The notes under the pieces are model-generated. The model had not been told where the DNA came from. It saw only the letters and a list, made by a program, of their open reading frames with translations, and did no database searches. From NCBI GenBank assembly GCA_903932145.1, contig CAIZFE010000076.1, positions 1 to 64,000 on the forward strand: a DNA stretch of 64,000 nucleotides, given 5' to 3'. The translations under genes and the position numbers were made by a program. The DNA is from an uncultured Rhodopila sp. (GTDB lineage: Bacteria; Pseudomonadota; Alphaproteobacteria; Acetobacterales; Acetobacteraceae). Below are positions 43,248 through 52,844 of this stretch, piece by piece; the first letter of the stretch is position 1, and the number at the start of each line of letters is the position of its first letter.

Positions 43248-43350
43248 CGCGATAGGTCGCTTGTATTCGGGCGACGCACAGGCGAGACAGCGGCGTAGCG
43301 TGCCGTTTCCCGCGATCACGGGCGACCAGGCCGTTGGGGAGAAACCGAGA

Positions 43351-44373
43351 ATGTTACGTACCACGATCGCCGGCAGCCTGCCGAAGCCGGAATGGCTGGC
43401 GGAACCGAACAAGCTCTGGGCGCCCTGGAAGGGAACCGGTGAGACACTGGCCGCCGCGAAACGCGATGCCACGCTGTTGTGGTTGAAGCGCCAGGAAGAC
43501 GCCGGGATCGACATCGTCACGGATGGCGAGCAATCGCGCCAGCATTTCGTGCATGGCTTCCTGGAACGCGTGGAAGGCATCGATTTTGACAATAAGGTCG
43601 AAATGGGCATACGCAACGATCGCTATAAGGCGATGGTGCCGACCGTCACCGGCGCCCTGCGCCTCTCCGGTCGCGTCCACGAAACCGAGGCTCGGTTGGC
43701 CCGCGCGCACACCGGGAATAAACTGAAATTCACGCTGCCCGGACCGATGACGCTGGTTGATACCATCGCCGATCAATACTACGGCGATAAGGTTGCCCTG
43801 GCCATGGCATTCGCCGATCTGCTCAACCAGGAAGCGCGCGCCCTGGAAGCCGACGGCGTCGATACGATCCAGTTCGATGAGCCCGCGTTCAACGTCTATA
43901 TGAATGAGGTCGCCACCTGGGGCATCCAGGCACTGGAACGCGCCGCGGCCGGGCTGCAATGCACCACGGCCGTGCATATCTGTTACGGCTACGGCATTCA
44001 GGCCAATATCGACTGGAAAAACTCGCTCGGCACCGAATGGAGCCAATACGAGCAGACCTTCCCGGTGCTGGCCGCCAGCTCGATCAACCAGGTGTCGCTG
44101 GAGTGCCGCAACGCCCGCGTGCCACTACGGCTGCTGAAACTGCTGGAAGGCAAGGACGTGCTGGTCGGCGTGATCGATGTCGCCACGGAGGTGGTGGAAA
44201 CGCCCGAACAGGTCGCCGCGGTCATCGAGGCGGCACTGGCCTATGTACCGGCCGATCGGCTGTTTCCCTGCACGAACTGTGGCCTGGCGCCGATGCCGGT
44301 CGATGTCGCCGCGGCCAAACTGGTCGCCCTGGGGCAGGGGGCCGAGCTGGCGAGGAAGCGCCTGGGCGCGTAA
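43351..44373 (+). CDS. MetE C-terminal-like methyltransferase (short methionine synthase homologue)
   Basis: A 340-residue protein corresponding to the catalytic half of cobalamin-independent methionine synthase. Zinc ligands are visible as H-x-C in 'AVHICYGYG' and the final Cys in 'FPCTNCGLAPMP', with 'IQFDEPAFNVY' giving the substrate Asp/Glu. The N-terminal half of MetE is missing, as in archaeal and core-MetE proteins. These may use methylcobamide or another methyl donor rather than folate polyglutamate. No DUF1852-type partner is next to it. ATG 43351 has GGGGAGAAACC upstream; it lies 103 bases after the hydrolase gene. Confidence 0.82.
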   Translation: MLRTTIAGSLPKPEWLAEPNKLWAPWKGTGETLAAAKRDATLLWLKRQEDAGIDIVTDGEQSRQHFVHGFLERVEGIDFDNKVEMGIRNDRYKAMVPTVTGALRLSGRVHETEARLARAHTGNKLKFTLPGPMTLVDTIADQYYGDKVALAMAFADLLNQEARALEADGVDTIQFDEPAFNVYMNEVATWGIQALERAAAGLQCTTAVHICYGYGIQANIDWKNSLGTEWSQYEQTFPVLAASSINQVSLECRNARVPLRLLKLLEGKDVLVGVIDVATEVVETPEQVAAVIEAALAYVPADRLFPCTNCGLAPMPVDVAAAKLVALGQGAELARKRLGA

Positions 44374-46530: not shown

Positions 46531-47370
46531 ATGGATCAACTCAGCCCCGCCGAAACGGGCCGCACCGCACAGGGCGATACCAGTATCACGCGCGTCCTCG
46601 GCATCCTCGACCTGTTCACGCCGGATACCCCGGTCTGGACCGTGGACATGCTCGTCGAACACCTCTCGCTCGGTCGCGCCACCATCTACCGGTATATCAG
46701 GGCGCTGTGCGACGCGGGTTTTTTGGTGCCGGTGGCGGGGGCCGGCTATGTCCTGGGGCCACGATTCATCGAGTTCGACCGTAGCATCCGGTTGGCCGAT
46801 CCGCTGCTGCACATCGTGCCGCCGGTGATGGCGGAGCTTCGCGAGGTGGTCAACGGCGCGCAGTTACTGTGCGGGTTCTACGGCCTGCGCGTGCTGACCG
46901 TGCTACAGGATAAGACCGACCCCAACATTACTATGAGTATGGAGCGCGGACGGCCATTTTCCCTGTTCCTGGGCTGTCCATCGCGGGTGATCCTGGCGCA
47001 TCTGTCGACCTACCAGTTGCGCAATCTGGCGCTGAACCAACAAAAAGAGATCGCGGCGGCCGGGCTCGGTGAGAACTGGGCCGAGTTCCGCGACACCATG
47101 CGGGCCATCCGCAAGACCGGCTATCTCGTGGCGAGCGACATCGACAAAGACCTGGTTGGCATCGCGGCGCCCATCTTCCACGCGCCGGGAGCGGTTGCGG
47201 CCAGTCTGTGTCTGGTGCGATTGAAAGAGAACGTGACGCCAGAGGATGCCGCTTTCCTGGGTGGGGTCGCGGTCGAGGCCTGCCAGCGGATTTCCGCCGA
47301 ACTGCAGGCGTTCCGGCCGGGCAACGCCGACACGGCGGCGCCGGCGTTTCCCATTTCCCGGGCGCGTTAA
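46531..47370 (+). CDS. IclR family transcriptional regulator
   Basis: A 279-residue regulator. The N-terminal winged helix has 'TSITRVLGILDLFTPDTPVWTV' and the recognition helix in 'LSLGRATIYRYIRALCDAGFL'; the C-terminal GAF-like effector domain (about 95-265) includes 'TMSMERGRPFSLFLGCPSRVILA' and 'GIAAPIFHAPGAVAASLCLV'. It lies divergent to the Baeyer-Villiger monooxygenase. Start ATG 46531 has AAGG upstream; ATG 46504 is a longer alternative. Probable effector: the ketone substrate or a product of the divergent enzyme. Confidence 0.9.
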   Translation: MDQLSPAETGRTAQGDTSITRVLGILDLFTPDTPVWTVDMLVEHLSLGRATIYRYIRALCDAGFLVPVAGAGYVLGPRFIEFDRSIRLADPLLHIVPPVMAELREVVNGAQLLCGFYGLRVLTVLQDKTDPNITMSMERGRPFSLFLGCPSRVILAHLSTYQLRNLALNQQKEIAAAGLGENWAEFRDTMRAIRKTGYLVASDIDKDLVGIAAPIFHAPGAVAASLCLVRLKENVTPEDAAFLGGVAVEACQRISAELQAFRPGNADTAAPAFPISRAR

Positions 47371-47372
47371 GA

Positions 47373-47642
47373 TCAACCGCCGCTGATCGCTGTCATCACA
47401 AACACCTCGGCGCCGGGGGCAATCCGCGTCTCCAGCGTCGCGCGTTCACCGTCGATGAAAATGTTGATGTGGCGTCGAACGCGCGGCGTGGAATCGCACA
47501 GGCGGTCGCGCATCCCCGGCCAGCGCGCGTCCAACGCATCCACCATTTCGTCAACTGTTGTGGCGGACACGGCCGGTTCGGGGTCGCAACCGGGGAACAG
47601 GCGCAACAGGGCAGGGGGCAGCAGGACCGTCACGGCGGCCAT
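47373..47642 (-). CDS. MoaD/ThiS-type ubiquitin-like sulfur-carrier protein
   Basis: An 89-residue beta-grasp protein ending in the diagnostic di-glycine 'TAISGG'. 'VTVLLPPALLRLFPG' is strand one and 'HINIFIDGERATLETRIAPGAEVFVM' (read in part) the central fold. In this superfamily the terminal Gly is adenylated and thiocarboxylated by an E1-like enzyme and then donates sulfur. No molybdopterin, thiamine or cysteine synthase gene is adjacent. Instead its ATG follows directly on the stop of the BNR-repeat gene (TAAATG-type junction), so the two are co-expressed. Confidence 0.88.
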   Translation of the reverse strand: MAAVTVLLPPALLRLFPGCDPEPAVSATTVDEMVDALDARWPGMRDRLCDSTPRVRRHINIFIDGERATLETRIAPGAEVFVMTAISGG

Positions 47643-48719
47643 TTACAGCACCAGCGTTTCCACTGACAGGATTGGCGGCAAGTGGTGGGCGATGTCGGTC
47701 CAGGTCTCGCCCTCATCGGCGCTGGCGAACAGCGTGCCGGTATTGGTGCCGGCATAGATCCCGGCTGGCTCCAGCCGATCCGCCGCCATCGCCTGGCGCA
47801 GCACGCCGAAGAACGCATTCTGCTGCGGCAAGCCGGTTCGCATCGCCTGCCATTCGGTGCCGCCGTCGCGGGTGCGGTACACGGCAGCCTTGCCGTCGGG
47901 AACGTAACGGCCGGCGATGTCGCCATTCAGGGGCACCAGGAACAGCGTCGATGGATCGCGCGGATGGGTGACGGCGGGAAAACCGAAGCTGGAGGGCAGG
48001 CCGGATTCGATACTCTCCCAATGCTGACCACCGTCGTCGGAGCGGTACATGCCGCAGTGGTTCTGCTGATACAGCCGGCTTGGATGGTTTGGCGCGATAA
48101 CGATGCAATGCACGCATTGGCCAAATTCGGGATAGCGTTCCGCTTCTGGTAGGTAGTCGCAGCGTGTGCCGGTGTTGCGGGGCGCCCAGGTCTGTCCGCC
48201 GTCTGCCGTATAGAATACGCCGGCTGAGGAAATCCCGATCCAGATCTGGTCCGCGTCATCCGGGTGAGGAACGATCGAGTGCAGGATCAAACCGGCCCCG
48301 CCCGGCTGCCAGTTCGGCGCGGTGGGGTGCGCGCGCAGGCCGGCGACATGGGACCAGGACGCCCCGCCATCATCGCTGCTGAACAACCCGGCCGGTTGCA
48401 CGCCGGCATACAGGCGGCCGTTACGCGGCGCGAGGCTCCAGACCGATTTGATCGCCTCCTCTCCGGCCTGATAGGCCAGACCTTCACTGGAATGCGTCCA
48501 GGTGGTGCCGAGATCGGTGGACTTCCAAACCGCGGGACCGAACCATTCGTTGCCGCCACCGGCGTAGATCGTTCCGGATACCGGGTCGGCGATGACGTGG
48601 TTCATCGGCCACGTCTCGCAGAACGGGCCTTTCAGTGACCACCCGGTTCGGCGTTCGTCGCTTTCCAGGATAAAGGCACCCTTCTTTGTCCCGAGCAGGA
48701 CGAAAACACGAGCTGTCAT
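47643..48719 (-). CDS. BNR/sialidase-like beta-propeller protein, cytoplasmic
   Basis: A 358-residue propeller with Asp-box repeats: 'SSDDGGASWSH', 'TADGGQTWAP', 'RSDDGGQHWES', 'RTRDGGTEWQA' and 'SADEGETWTD' (S/T-x-D-x-G-x-T/x-W pattern). It is often annotated as exo-alpha-sialidase or glycosyl hydrolase, but the catalytic Arg triad and Tyr/Glu pair of sialidases are not evident. There is no signal peptide: the product starts 'MTARVFVLLGTKKGAF'. GGAGG precedes ATG 48719. Tight linkage to a MoaD-like protein and to a divergent MarR regulator suggests a cytoplasmic role, possibly as a sulfur-transfer partner; this is inference. Confidence 0.85.
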   Translation of the reverse strand: MTARVFVLLGTKKGAFILESDERRTGWSLKGPFCETWPMNHVIADPVSGTIYAGGGNEWFGPAVWKSTDLGTTWTHSSEGLAYQAGEEAIKSVWSLAPRNGRLYAGVQPAGLFSSDDGGASWSHVAGLRAHPTAPNWQPGGAGLILHSIVPHPDDADQIWIGISSAGVFYTADGGQTWAPRNTGTRCDYLPEAERYPEFGQCVHCIVIAPNHPSRLYQQNHCGMYRSDDGGQHWESIESGLPSSFGFPAVTHPRDPSTLFLVPLNGDIAGRYVPDGKAAVYRTRDGGTEWQAMRTGLPQQNAFFGVLRQAMAADRLEPAGIYAGTNTGTLFASADEGETWTDIAHHLPPILSVETLVL

Positions 48720-48751
48720 GGCTTTTCCTCCCTTTGCCGGCGTCAGGTTCC

Positions 48752-48781
48752 TGGACAGATAGGTTGATGTCAACCTATAAT
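48752..48781. promoter_or_regulatory. MarR operator overlapping divergent promoters
   Basis: A perfect 8-base inverted repeat, TAGGTTGA (48760-48767) and TCAACCTA (48770-48777) with a 2-base centre. A consensus TATAAT lies at 48776-48781 with TGGACA at 48752-48757 (18-base spacer) for the rightward marR gene. On the other strand TTGACA (48773-48768) lies in the dyad and could be the -35 of the leftward gene pair, although its -10 is weak. Binding would block both. Confidence 0.75.
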
Positions 48782-48786
48782 TGGTC

Positions 48787-49233
48787 ATGCCGCCGCTGGA
48801 TGACCTCTCTTTCACCACCACGTTAACTGTTCGGGATTCCTGTCTGTGTCTGCACGTCCAGAGGGCAGCGCGGGCACTGGCCCGGCGGTTCGATGAGGCG
48901 CTGCGGCCGGCCGGGCTGACCAGCGGGCAGTTCTCGCTGCTGATGGCGCTGAACCGGCCGCAGCCGGCGGGGATCGCTCAGGTCGCGGCATTGCTGGCGA
49001 TGGATCGAACGACGCTGACGGCGAATCTGAAGCCGTTGCAGCGGCTTGGGTTTGTTCATGTGTTGGCGGGGGAGAAGGATAAGCGACGGCGCGTGCTGGT
49101 TTTGACTCCGGCCGGCCGGTCAGCTCTGGCGGCGGCGGTGCCGATCTGGCGGCAGACGCATCAGGCGATTGAGGGGGCGCTTGGGGACTCCAACCCCGAC
49201 CGGCTGCGGGCGGATTTGATGGCGCTAAGCTAA
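48787..49233 (+). CDS. MarR family transcriptional regulator
   Basis: A 148-residue winged-helix regulator: 'AGLTSGQFSLLMALNRP' is helix alpha 2-3, 'GIAQVAALLAMDRTTLTANLKPLQRLGFV' (in part) the DNA-binding helices, and 'GEKDKRRRVLVLTPAGR' the wing. ATG 48787 is used; the TATAAT at 48776-48781 would place the transcript start at about 48788, so the mRNA may have almost no leader. It diverges from the BNR and MoaD-type genes and should control them through the palindrome at 48760-48777. Confidence 0.9.
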   Translation: MPPLDDLSFTTTLTVRDSCLCLHVQRAARALARRFDEALRPAGLTSGQFSLLMALNRPQPAGIAQVAALLAMDRTTLTANLKPLQRLGFVHVLAGEKDKRRRVLVLTPAGRSALAAAVPIWRQTHQAIEGALGDSNPDRLRADLMALS

Positions 49234-49838
49234 CTGGACGCTAGGCAGATGTGCGCGACGACCCGCCAATGTGAACCCAATCATGCTATTAGTGCGAGCT
49301 GGAGCGCGAGGTCAGATGGGTGGTGATGGAAGCCGCGACGCCCGAACCCGATCTGCCTCACCGGTTGGAGCGGGCGTATTTCGGTCAGGATGCGGTTAGT
49401 CCGCTGGAAGCGTGATCCTGTCCGCGGCGCGCTTTATCGCTATGGTACCTATCTGCATCCGCATGAAGCTGGTTGGGACCATTTTGCCGCTAATCTCGGT
49501 GTCGGGCCATGGCTCGTAATTGAAATACCGCACATCAACGTCAATGTGGCCGGCTTTTAAATTGCATTTTGAAAATGAAATCCGATTTATTGCCGCGAAT
49601 TCGGCCGTGTGTTCCGAAAATATATTGAATTTTTTCAGAACTTGTCCGATGGCCAGAAAATATGGCCCTTTCCGCAGTGCCGATCGTAATATTGAAATCA
49701 TTTCCTGTAAATGAACTATCTTTAATTTGAATTGTAGTACAGCCACAGACGCCGACCATTTGATGCGGGACATCGAAAATACTTGCGTTGCCCTAAAAGA
49801 AAATCCGTCCAGTCACAAAACCAGTGAGGAATGCCGAG
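49234..49838. other. AT-rich gap, possible gene remnants
   Basis: No firm gene lies in these 605 bases. A minus-strand frame at 49396-49773 could give 125 residues ('HIDVDVRYFNYEPWPDTEI' in its C-terminal half), while overlapping frames also stay open, a sign of low-GC non-coding or decayed DNA. At 49293-49412 a plus-strand frame reads 'MEAATPEPDLPHRLERAYFG' from about 49326 to a stop, like the tail of a lost gene. Between 49550 and 49740 the GC content drops clearly below that of the surroundings. Confidence 0.4.
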
Positions 49839-51065
49839 ATGATCAAAATAAAACGTATTGCGTTGTCGGCGGTGCCCATGATGTTGCTTTCCGGATACAT
49901 TGGCGGTGCGCGTGCTGACGAGCACATGGTACTTGTCGATACGATCGATGTCGGCGGCAACGGTCTGGGCACCTTTGACATCAGCTTCGTCGATCCGAAA
50001 CTCGACCTTTACGTGCTGTCCGACCGCACAAACGGATCAATCGACTTTTTTGACGCAAGCGATGATACGTTCATCTCGCGTGTTGCCGGCTTTGCCGGCC
50101 AGAAATTTAAGGCCGATGGGGTCACTGCCGACAACACGATTTCCGGCCCGGACGGGGTGACGATCGTCAATAATCAACAGGTCTGGGCAGGTGACGGCGA
50201 CAGCACGGTGAAGGTTATCGACTTAGCCAGTCATCAGATTGTCGATACGATCTCGACCGGTGGTAAGTTTCGCTGCGACGAAATGGCTTGGGACTCGGCC
50301 GACCATATTCTCGCCGTCGCGAACAATGCCGACGTACCGCCGTTCGTTACGATGATCAATACCGATACCCATGTGGTCATTGGTAAAATCGTATTCGACG
50401 GTTCGAACGGAACGCCGGATGCGACGCAAACCGGCATCGAGCAATCCCAGTGGTCGCCGCAGACGGGCCTTTTTTATGTATCCGTACCGCAGATTGTTCC
50501 GAGCGATGCGACAGAAGGCGGGGTGTCCGTGATCGACCCCAGTTCGATGAGCGTGAAGGCGACCTATCCGGTGCTGAACTGCTCCCCGGCCGGCCTGACA
50601 CTCGGTCCGAATCATCAGGCGATGATCGGCTGTGGCTCGTCGTTCACCGTGCCGCCGGCCACGGTTGCCACTACCCAGTCGATCGTGATCGATCTGAGTA
50701 ATGGTGACATTCTCGCGAACATCACCCAGGCCGGCGGCAACGACGAGGTCTGGTACGACAAGGGGACAGCCCATTACTATCTGGCGGCCAGGAGCACTCT
50801 TACGGCCGGGAAGGTGACGCCGATCCTCGGCACCGTAGACGCCAAGACAAATGCCTGGGATAGCGGTGTATCAACATCGACGACGGCACATTCGGTTGCG
50901 GCGGACAGCCGTTCGCATCATGTCTTCGTGCCGATCGGGTTCGTGCCGCCCGGCAGCGCGGCCGGGACCGACTCGACCAATCCTTGCCCGACGCGGGGCT
51001 GCATCGCGGTGTATCTGCCGTCATCGATCGATGACGATGATGGCACGGCGCAGGCCAGCCAGTAG
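49839..51065 (+). CDS. exported YncE-like beta-propeller protein
   Basis: A 408-residue secreted or periplasmic protein. The signal peptide (about 1-26, 'IKRIALSAVPMMLLSGYIGGARA') is followed by blades of a seven-fold YVTN/NHL-like propeller: 'LDLYVLSDRTNGSIDFFDASDD', 'VWAGDGDSTVKVIDLASHQIVD', 'LFYVSVPQ...GGVSVIDPSSMSV' and 'HHVFVPIGFVPP'. ATG 49839 is chosen because GAGGA lies eight bases before it. Function in the family is unclear (scaffolding, substrate binding). It is monocistronic with a strong terminator. Confidence 0.82.
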   Translation: MIKIKRIALSAVPMMLLSGYIGGARADEHMVLVDTIDVGGNGLGTFDISFVDPKLDLYVLSDRTNGSIDFFDASDDTFISRVAGFAGQKFKADGVTADNTISGPDGVTIVNNQQVWAGDGDSTVKVIDLASHQIVDTISTGGKFRCDEMAWDSADHILAVANNADVPPFVTMINTDTHVVIGKIVFDGSNGTPDATQTGIEQSQWSPQTGLFYVSVPQIVPSDATEGGVSVIDPSSMSVKATYPVLNCSPAGLTLGPNHQAMIGCGSSFTVPPATVATTQSIVIDLSNGDILANITQAGGNDEVWYDKGTAHYYLAARSTLTAGKVTPILGTVDAKTNAWDSGVSTSTTAHSVAADSRSHHVFVPIGFVPPGSAAGTDSTNPCPTRGCIAVYLPSSIDDDDGTAQASQ

Positions 51066-51124: not shown

Positions 51125-51314
51125 GTGACTTGTCCCATAGGATGGACCGAACCACACTCAAGCTTATCTGCGATTTGACACGATCACCTCGCCGGCGCAG
51201 CGTCGCTTTCAAGAGCGGAGACGTGCGTCCAAAATACGGGGTGACCGATAACGAAACGGTACAAACATCTTGTCCGCCGACCTAGCGTGAGTCTGCCAAA
51301 ACAGGAGTATGCCC

Positions 51315-52844
51315 ATGTCCAGAGCTGTCACATACGACGAGTCCATTGAGCCTTTGGTGCGGTTCATCGAAGAGACACCGCGCGCCGAAATCATCGATAA
51401 AACCATGGAAAAACTGCGCGCCGGGGTGCCGGTGAAGACGATGCTGACCGCCTCCGCCCTGGCCGTCACGCGGTCCTGCGATTTGCCCCCGGGTCATCAT
51501 GGCGGACCGCTGCATCCGATCGCCGGCATTTACGCGGTGACGAAATTGCATGAGCGCATGCAGGGCGACGACCGGTTTTTTCCGATCGTGCAGCAGGTGG
51601 CGCTGGCCAACAAACATGTGCATGACCCCGTCACCGGCCCCTTCAGGCTGATGGAATTCGCGCCCCTCGATGTGACCGGCGGCAGCGAAACTCAACTGGA
51701 GCACCTGGCCGCCGACGGCACCGGCAAAGTATCGAACGCCAAAGGACTCGAAGCCGCGAAAGCGGCTTTCCTGAAGGCCTGCGACCGCGGCGAGTCGAAC
51801 AAGGCCGATCATCTCTATCAATGGATGTGGGACAACATGCCCCGCATGGAATGTTTCGACCTGTTGATGTCGATTGCGATTCCCAAGAACGCCCTGGACG
51901 ATCATTATTTTATTTACCCAGCCTACACATGGCGGGCAATGCATGAGGTGATTGGTACCGACCACCTGAAACACCTGATGCGCGGATCGGTTCGTTACAC
52001 CGCGCGGCTGCCGGCGCCTCGCGCGATGCCGGCCGTGGAGGAATTGATCCAAAAGCACGGCTTGATGGACCGTATCATTCCGGTCAAAGCCAGCCAGGAC
52101 GAAGGCGCGGTCATCGGGCCTCTGGGCGAAGCGATTTACGGCGTCGAGGACTACAACACCATCCCGGTCCTGCTGGCCGAGGCGCTGGCCGATGGTTTGT
52201 CGCTGGAAGGTGCCGGCGAAGCTTTGTCCATTGGCGCCGCCGGACTGTTCCTGCGCTCGCTGACCGGCAACCCGATGGATGTGCATCTGCATACCAGCGT
52301 CAATCTGCGCCGCTGGCTGTTGCGGCTGGACGGGCTCAGCCGTTGGAACAAGTTGATGATCCTGCTGACCTGGCATACCGGACCGGAGGTCAAATCCACC
52401 CAGTACCGGATGGAATCGCAGCCGCAGATGGATGACGCGGCGGTCGCGGCGTTGCCGCACCGGACGCAGGAGGATCTGCTGGATGCGCTCGCCTACAGCA
52501 TTTACACGCAACCGCCGACCGACTGGTCCACGGTCACCAACCTTGGGCGTATGCGCGCGGTGCCGGAGGTGAAAAACACCATCAACCTCGCGTACCAGTA
52601 TGTGAAACTCGGTTACGACGCCGATGCGCTGATTAAACGTCTGGGTGAAATCGTCTGCCACGACAGTTTCACCGAGATGCATGCGTTCAAGCATCATCAG
52701 GCGATCGTGGAAGAGTTTCACGCGACTCGGGAGCCTTACCGCTGGATGCACCTGGTGTCCGGCGCCCAGGCGGCGGCGATTTCTTATGGTAAGAATATGG
52801 AAGTTTACGAGGGTGCGTTGGAGTTGATGCACGCGGCGGAGTAA
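51315..52844 (+). CDS. protein of unknown family (509 residues), His-rich motifs
   Basis: I do not recognise the family. The protein is long, mostly helical, soluble and well formed. It has several His-containing motifs that could bind metal or heme: 'PPGHHGGPLHPIAG' (about 56-69), 'LANKHVHD', 'LTWHTGPEVK' and 'HAFKHHQAIVEEFH' near the C-terminus. 'SQDEGAVIGPLGEAIYG' resembles a nucleotide- or cofactor-binding loop but no known signature is complete. ATG 51315 is preferred over ATG 51309 because AGGAG (51303-51307) is correctly spaced for it. It stands alone with its own terminator. No signal peptide is present. Confidence 0.8.
   Translation: MSRAVTYDESIEPLVRFIEETPRAEIIDKTMEKLRAGVPVKTMLTASALAVTRSCDLPPGHHGGPLHPIAGIYAVTKLHERMQGDDRFFPIVQQVALANKHVHDPVTGPFRLMEFAPLDVTGGSETQLEHLAADGTGKVSNAKGLEAAKAAFLKACDRGESNKADHLYQWMWDNMPRMECFDLLMSIAIPKNALDDHYFIYPAYTWRAMHEVIGTDHLKHLMRGSVRYTARLPAPRAMPAVEELIQKHGLMDRIIPVKASQDEGAVIGPLGEAIYGVEDYNTIPVLLAEALADGLSLEGAGEALSIGAAGLFLRSLTGNPMDVHLHTSVNLRRWLLRLDGLSRWNKLMILLTWHTGPEVKSTQYRMESQPQMDDAAVAALPHRTQEDLLDALAYSIYTQPPTDWSTVTNLGRMRAVPEVKNTINLAYQYVKLGYDADALIKRLGEIVCHDSFTEMHAFKHHQAIVEEFHATREPYRWMHLVSGAQAAAISYGKNMEVYEGALELMHAAE

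Follow-up and report, generated by a model that had tools for sequence, protein, structure and literature searches.

A GG-tailed MoaD/ThiS-like protein and its beta-propeller partner: a recurrent bacterial gene pair and a possible two-component enzyme

Why should a small protein of the MoaD/ThiS type be encoded base-to-base with a beta-propeller? The question is raised by a locus in a 64,000-nucleotide stretch of the genome of an uncultured Rhodopila sp. (contig CAIZFE010000076.1; this whole stretch is referred to below as the window). The stop codon of the propeller gene (TAA, 47643-47645) abuts the ATG of the MoaD/ThiS-like gene with zero bases between them (CTG TAA ATG), and the two genes are one unit. 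An earlier note on this DNA had singled out this junction and had made conservation of the pair elsewhere a check set beforehand; the junction is as described, and the pair has passed the check, with MoaD found beside or fused to most of the distinct propellers collected. That MoaD and the propeller constitute a functional pair is, from comparison of the sequences, near certain, because the two genes change their order, because they fuse, and because the di-glycine (GG) tail of MoaD is retained almost without exception. What the pair does can be approached more tentatively: we put at a little below an even chance the reading in which it is a two-component enzyme, a di-glycine sulfur carrier, activated by a housekeeping E1-type activating enzyme (E1), serving an active site in the propeller.

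How general is the pairing? Scanning assembled genomes (genome_contigs) yields at least 582 confirmed relatives of the propeller; in 73 of the best 80 of these at least 582 loci the propeller has a MoaD match behind it, which starts no more than 100 bp from the propeller match in 72 cases and 515 bp from it in the remaining case. The pooled set, in which close relatives of the window are over-represented, comprises 216 distinct propellers once duplicates of identical sequence and six loci fetched twice are removed: MoaD is downstream in 132, upstream in 34, fused in frame in 13, and missing in 37 (some of these, L085 and L269 for example, lying near contig ends). Linkage in 179 of 216 rules out chance adjacency. 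Two evenly drawn genome samples are without that enrichment. In 398 Pseudomonadota the propeller is present in 28 genomes (the window's own included) and linked to MoaD in 17 of them; in the phylum to which G061 belongs, taken as Actinomycetota (the G061 locus is labelled Thermoleophilia), 83 of 346 genomes have it, with MoaD linked at 69 of 84 hits. The carrier-propeller pairing occurs in Pseudomonadota, Chloroflexota and Actinomycetota. It does not extend to the more distant propellers of same-genus genomes (105-120 bits, with about 1.5 kb of flank on each side), none of 11 having a MoaD.

The arrangement is fluid. On a FastTree phylogeny of 214 propellers (midpoint-rooted, with long branches present) the states downstream, upstream, fused and none require 14 changes; upstream plus fused against the rest requires 4, absence against presence 8, and fusion 5. 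From these 14 changes it follows that the partnership outlives rearrangement. The 13 fusions, all in the Actinomycetota sample, are built alike: MoaD comes first and ends in SGG, and 4 to about 24 linker residues connect it to the propeller. The SGG is kept in all 13 despite the variable linkers, and in the AlphaFold model of one fusion (L213) it lies inside a stretch that is predicted to be disordered (predicted local distance difference test score below 50 at residues 83-87). Separate MoaDs also may extend past their GG: 1-25 further residues are found in 12 of 34 upstream MoaDs, versus 6 of the 125 downstream MoaDs that have GG. The free linkers, the retention of SGG and these additional residues of upstream MoaDs fit release of the carrier by cleavage.

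What kind of carrier is it? The window's MoaD matches the beta-grasp ThiS domain (Pfam PF02597) at 27.9 bits against a cut-off of 22.5, and its C-terminus, SGG, is of the kind that MoaD/ThiS sulfur carriers have. By profile, the closest proteins of the Protein Data Bank (PDB) are 4n6e_B and CysO (3dwg, 3dwm), with SAMP1 structures next. The NCBIfam SAMP1 model matches all 14 of the family MoaDs scanned and the archaeal MoaD model 8 of them; the window's own MoaD reaches 36.9 bits with the SAMP1 equivalog NF041918, below the cut-off of 60. Over 177 MoaDs of the pair, among them rows truncated by contig ends, conservation (in window numbering) is 1.00, as rounded, for R56, 0.99 for P42, and 0.98 and 0.96 for G88 and G89. 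The GG tail is kept in 172 of 179 linked MoaDs, and in 172 of 176 when three of the seven misses, which are cut by contig ends, are set aside. These likenesses mark the window's MoaD as CysO/SAMP1-like.

It is also separate from the molybdopterin MoaD of its own genome, as the earlier note had supposed: it has neither the FPPV.GG tail nor the adjacent MoaE of a canonical molybdopterin synthase small subunit, and the canonical MoaD, with the tail FPPVTGG, is encoded on contig C73. The genome contains three other ThiS-family matches in all. One, on contig C111, adjoins a gene that reads as thiG-like, and it and the canonical MoaD are loci apart from the pair; a MoaD-like gene on C86 (L120, 3572-3823), with the tail PKIGGG, stands directly behind what reads as a large molybdo-hydroxylase-like gene. 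MoaE is on contig C42, and the only E1 above cut-off is on contig C98; searches of the genome give no other ThiS-family, MoaE or E1 match on the window's contig. The assertion that no molybdopterin, thiamine or cysteine pathway gene is nearby holds for these families, the note having left unlisted a PF01717 gene 3 kb away. The description of the locus as self-contained fails, the sole E1 being on another contig.

The propeller matches the BNR and the Sortilin/Vps10 models of Pfam; its sequence opens with a beta strand and, by direct reading (no signal-peptide program was run), has no signal peptide, in keeping with the cytoplasmic location first proposed for it. It is a full-length homologue of PDB entry 3b7f (Reut_B4987, YP_299179.1, "putative glycosyl hydrolase with BNR repeats"), with a phmmer E-value of 3.8e-74 over residues 4-355, and the predicted model of a Bosea homologue superimposes on 3b7f with a template-modelling score of 0.90 by target (Foldseek). 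A 2009 survey of Asp-box proteins (PMC2716378) presents 3b7f as seven-bladed and lists its function as not known. Public annotations call members of the family "exo-alpha-sialidase", "sialidase family protein" or hypothetical protein, and in two annotated records a "MoaD/ThiS family protein" immediately precedes an "exo-alpha-sialidase", a neighbourhood that draws no comment there. The sialidase names are probably misleading. The RIP motif defines the sialidase family (GH33), and direct reading of the propeller sequence does not find it.

To that extent the propeller was rightly said to lack sialidase catalytic residues; it does have an invariant set of its own. Over 214 distinct propellers (the 216 minus two fragments), conservation reaches 98-100% at K13, H147, H204, Q219, H221 and R308, and 99-100% at W137, F245, G246 and P263. 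In the predicted strands the conserved charged and polar residues are situated at the starts of inner strands or in the B-C turn. Such positions lie, by propeller topology, on the face opposite the Asp-boxes, and it is there that the conserved residues would form a pocket. Three histidines and a glutamine with an arginine are reminiscent of the metal sites of propeller lyases; oligogalacturonate lyase (PL22), a cytoplasmic propeller with a three-His-plus-Gln metal site, is offered as a lead only. A docking site for MoaD was also sought among linkage-specific residues: F60, G111, F113, W122, R134, G184 and Q201 seemed specific in 132 rows; in 214 rows, of these only F113 is relaxed, in two MoaD-less clades, and no docking site is claimed.

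How might the carrier and the propeller work together? Sulfur chemistry is suggested because CysO-type carriers are relatives of this MoaD. The sole MoeB/ThiF-type E1 of the cell (an E1 above cut-off is found in 37 of 38 genomes with the pair) would first activate the carrier's tail as an adenylate, and sulfur would then be loaded onto it as a thiocarboxylate. The propeller would be the dedicated acceptor, using the tail or the sulfide released from it at the His/Gln/Arg/Lys pocket, where some small molecule of the cytoplasm would be thiolated or changed in another way. In the fused forms a cut behind GG would probably release the carrier, as happens in fusions of MoaD with MoaE.

Several results weigh against this scheme. 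The chief one concerns propellers that have no MoaD beside them. The loss of linkage is clustered: it concerns one clade of Rhodobacterales, one of the Stappia type, one that is Streptomyces-like, and four loci in a further actinobacterial clade (these names rest on few named members). In all four clades the six residues K13, H147, H204, Q219, H221 and R308 are conserved as well as they are elsewhere; F113 is relaxed in two. When 14 MoaD-less genomes were searched, Elioraea turned out to have, some 60 kb from the propeller, a MoaD that matches the family strongly, and three had weak matches; in 10 of the 14 no family MoaD was found at E-values up to 0.001. With the conserved residues intact in the face of these ten absences, the propeller evidently can persist without a dedicated MoaD and may act without one, which speaks against a strictly obligate pair. 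At four loci (L040, L044, L070, L173) the MoaD is without GG, and no contig end accounts for this. In the fusions GG is buried within the chain, and a cleavage that is as yet putative would be needed. Two AlphaFold runs (predicted template-modelling score 0.74 each), made with shallow alignments of 25 rows (13 read-through pairs and 12 propellers only) and 13 rows (natural fusions), give no fixed placement of MoaD against the propeller; a viral fold search added nothing. Clustering of neighbours at the best 80 and at 83 Actinomycetota loci does not find a sulfurtransferase or an E1 as a recurring linked partner. Proteases of the JAMM family pass the cut-off in every one of the 44 Actinomycetota genomes tested, whatever the arrangement of the genes, and in 4 of 12 Pseudomonadota: they are present also where nothing needs cutting, and JAMM is rejected as a discriminator of fusion or of linkage. 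Finally, nothing found here points directly to thiocarboxylation or to any substrate.

(Two observations on solitary and neighboring genes belong here. In Rhodobacter (L172, 3601-7128) a solitary propeller is divergent from egtB-egtD, the genes of ergothioneine; in Oceanibaculum (L082, 1740-5760) egtB-egtD is downstream of the pair. No strong match of this kind was found beyond these two among the loci examined, many of which have short flanks. L110, labelled Enemella evansiae (Actinomycetota), has a Rhodobacterales-type propeller, and the phylum search from its genome gave the same places as that for the window's own phylum; the record is probably mislabelled.)

Is sulfur transfer needed to account for the pair at all? 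MoaD might instead be a permanently bound beta-grasp subunit, structural or regulatory, in which case the 13 natural fusions and the persistent linkage would mirror a physical complex and the four MoaDs without GG would be no embarrassment. A subunit of this sort gives no ready account of a GG that is so consistently kept, in the fusions as in the separate proteins, and that is placed, in L213, in predicted disorder and not in a confident interface; neither AlphaFold run predicts docking. We regard it as unlikely. Quite unlikely, too, is ubiquitin-like tagging, in which a SAMP1-like modifier would be attached to target proteins at their lysines, with the propeller as the dedicated partner that binds, ligates or removes it. 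The match of the SAMP1 model to every MoaD scanned (the window's own remaining under the cut-off), the presence of SAMP1 structures among the nearest in the PDB, and the JAMM proteases of all the Actinomycetota tested lend it some color. On the other side, the window's own genome has no JAMM match, the actinobacterial JAMM does not track fusion or linkage, and CysO-type carriers outscore SAMP1 in the PDB; archaeal SAMPs, moreover, double as sulfur carriers, which counts against tagging alone.

The conservation of the pocket in four MoaD-less clades, with F113 relaxed in two of them, is what a stand-alone propeller enzyme (a metal lyase or something hydrolase-like) would lead one to expect, MoaD then being an accessory for thiol delivery or protection that some lineages have lost. 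It explains repeated fusion, re-linkage and the strict GG tail less well, and seems improbable. Most improbable is that MoaD is simply a second small subunit for the ordinary molybdopterin synthase, with the propeller as an accessory. MoaE is indeed encoded by all 38 pair genomes tested and, in the sample of 398, by each of the 28 genomes that have the propeller; it is encoded by 325 of the 398 in any case, and its profile does not discriminate. The window's genome has its canonical FPPVTGG-tailed MoaD elsewhere and its MoaE on another contig, and in none of the 13 fusions is MoaD joined to MoaE, the partner always being a propeller.

The layout of the locus is collected in Table 1. Divergent from the propeller-MoaD unit is a gene for a MarR-family regulator; as the earlier note had it, a perfect palindrome, presumably the operator, lies between the two starts. 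Its core, GTTGA-N2-TCAAC, is found only there in the 64 kb (0.03 copies would be expected from base composition) and recurs in 21 of the 22 distinct regions between a propeller gene and a divergent marR; 19 of the 22 are within four mismatches of the window's palindrome. The promoter-like sequence that overlaps it can be compared with an average of 0.4 such sites in shuffles of the 2-kb region. An earlier marR start (TTG, 48781) is less likely than the ATG, several relatives beginning at the position of the latter.

Table 1. Features of the carrier-propeller locus, in window coordinates.
Feature	Position	Strand	Remarks
MoaD/ThiS-like sulfur carrier (CysO/SAMP1-like)	47373..47642	-	89 aa, C-terminal TAISGG; Pfam ThiS
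Asp-box (BNR) seven-bladed beta-propeller	47643..48719	-	358 aa; start ATG at 48719; homology and fold match to 3b7f
Sigma-70-like marR promoter, TGGACA-18-TATAAT	48752..48781	+	overlaps palindrome; 11/12 matches
Palindrome TAGGTTGA-TG-TCAACCTA, presumed MarR operator	48760..48777		between divergent starts
MarR-family regulator, Cys19-x-Cys21	48787..49233	+	start ATG at 48787; Pfam MarR; lineage-specific partner

MarR is not part of the core. It accompanies this family at 24 distinct loci (27 rows minus three re-fetched copies), and a MarR relative is within 3 kb of the propeller in 13 of the best 80 loci: sequence comparison marks it as a lineage-specific addition in a minority of the propeller family, and what had been called a three-gene module is reduced to a core of two genes. 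C19 is present at 24 of the 24 loci and C21 at 23. The closest PDB relative is 4fx0 (1e-23, 87 bits), which we take to be MosR of M. tuberculosis and whose Cys-x-Cys, presumably its switch, is in register with that of the window's MarR (likewise 4fx4); the reactive cysteine of OhrR (2pfb) aligns with Cys21, as in thiol-switch MarR proteins. This resemblance makes a thiol-oxidation switch a fair guess where MarR is present. MarR with its Cys-x-Cys would then repress both operons from the one palindrome and be relieved by oxidation of its thiols.

The surroundings of the pair are otherwise varied. Neighbour clustering (the same 80 and 83 loci) shows no conserved third gene beyond MoaD. Minority neighbors are an ECF sigma factor with DUF6596, YCII, AHSA1 and VOC proteins, in clusters of 9, 7, 5 and 4 members at the best 80 loci (named from the Pfam match of one member each); the pair is in or near clusters of ECF sigma-DUF6596, YCII/YciI, AHSA1 and VOC genes at L179 (a P. 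aeruginosa plasmid record), L060, L064 and L075. Beside some of the MoaD-propeller fusions there are rhomboid-like genes (L218, L241, L247, L251) or thioredoxin-like genes (L218, L241, L243, L251), each at 4 of 83 loci and named by reading. In the window an IclR gene (46531-47370, plus strand; Pfam) converges on the 3' end of the MoaD gene and is left out of the unit. The PF01717 gene already mentioned (43345-44373, plus strand) is like the catalytic domain of MetE, without an evident N-terminal half; the 40 largest clusters of neighbours at the best 80 propeller loci include no MetE-like one. On the far side of marR are a 413-aa YVTN/PQQ-repeat-like protein with weak model matches (49824-51065, plus strand) and a 511-aa open reading frame (51309-52844, plus strand) that neither Pfam nor NCBIfam models match at E-values up to 1.

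It is a common arrangement for a small GG-tailed carrier to have a partner of its own. MoaD has MoaE and ThiS has ThiG; the partner in the window has another fold. CysO-CysM of Mycobacterium (3dwg) and the BexX pair (4n6e), which include the closest solved relatives of this MoaD, are likewise made up of a GG-tailed MoaD-like carrier and a dedicated acceptor. Those acceptors are a pyridoxal phosphate enzyme and a ThiG-like barrel; here the acceptor would be a beta-propeller, in a genome that has no JAMM match. No description of the carrier-propeller pair was found in the open-licence literature, a scope outside of which most subscription journals lie; two surveys of ubiquitin-like (Ubl) proteins contain none of six propeller or sialidase terms and a third has "propeller" only among the abbreviations of a figure legend.

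The wider proposition, which we think possible and consider doubtful, is that of a widespread bacterial Ubl-propeller system, in which the carrier, separate or cleaved from a fusion, donates sulfur to a metal-type active site of the propeller, under MarR thiol-redox control in some lineages. If true, it would be the first case of a protein thiocarboxylate supplying a propeller enzyme, whose product would be an as yet undescribed sulfur metabolite. The natural MoaD-propeller fusions provide a single-chain reagent for approaching it. To our knowledge, every dedicated partner found for a MoaD-like carrier has brought a pathway to light, to molybdopterin, to thiamine, to cysteine and to thiosugars; a carrier tied to a propeller across three phyla may be one more, a missing sulfur pathway that is directly testable.

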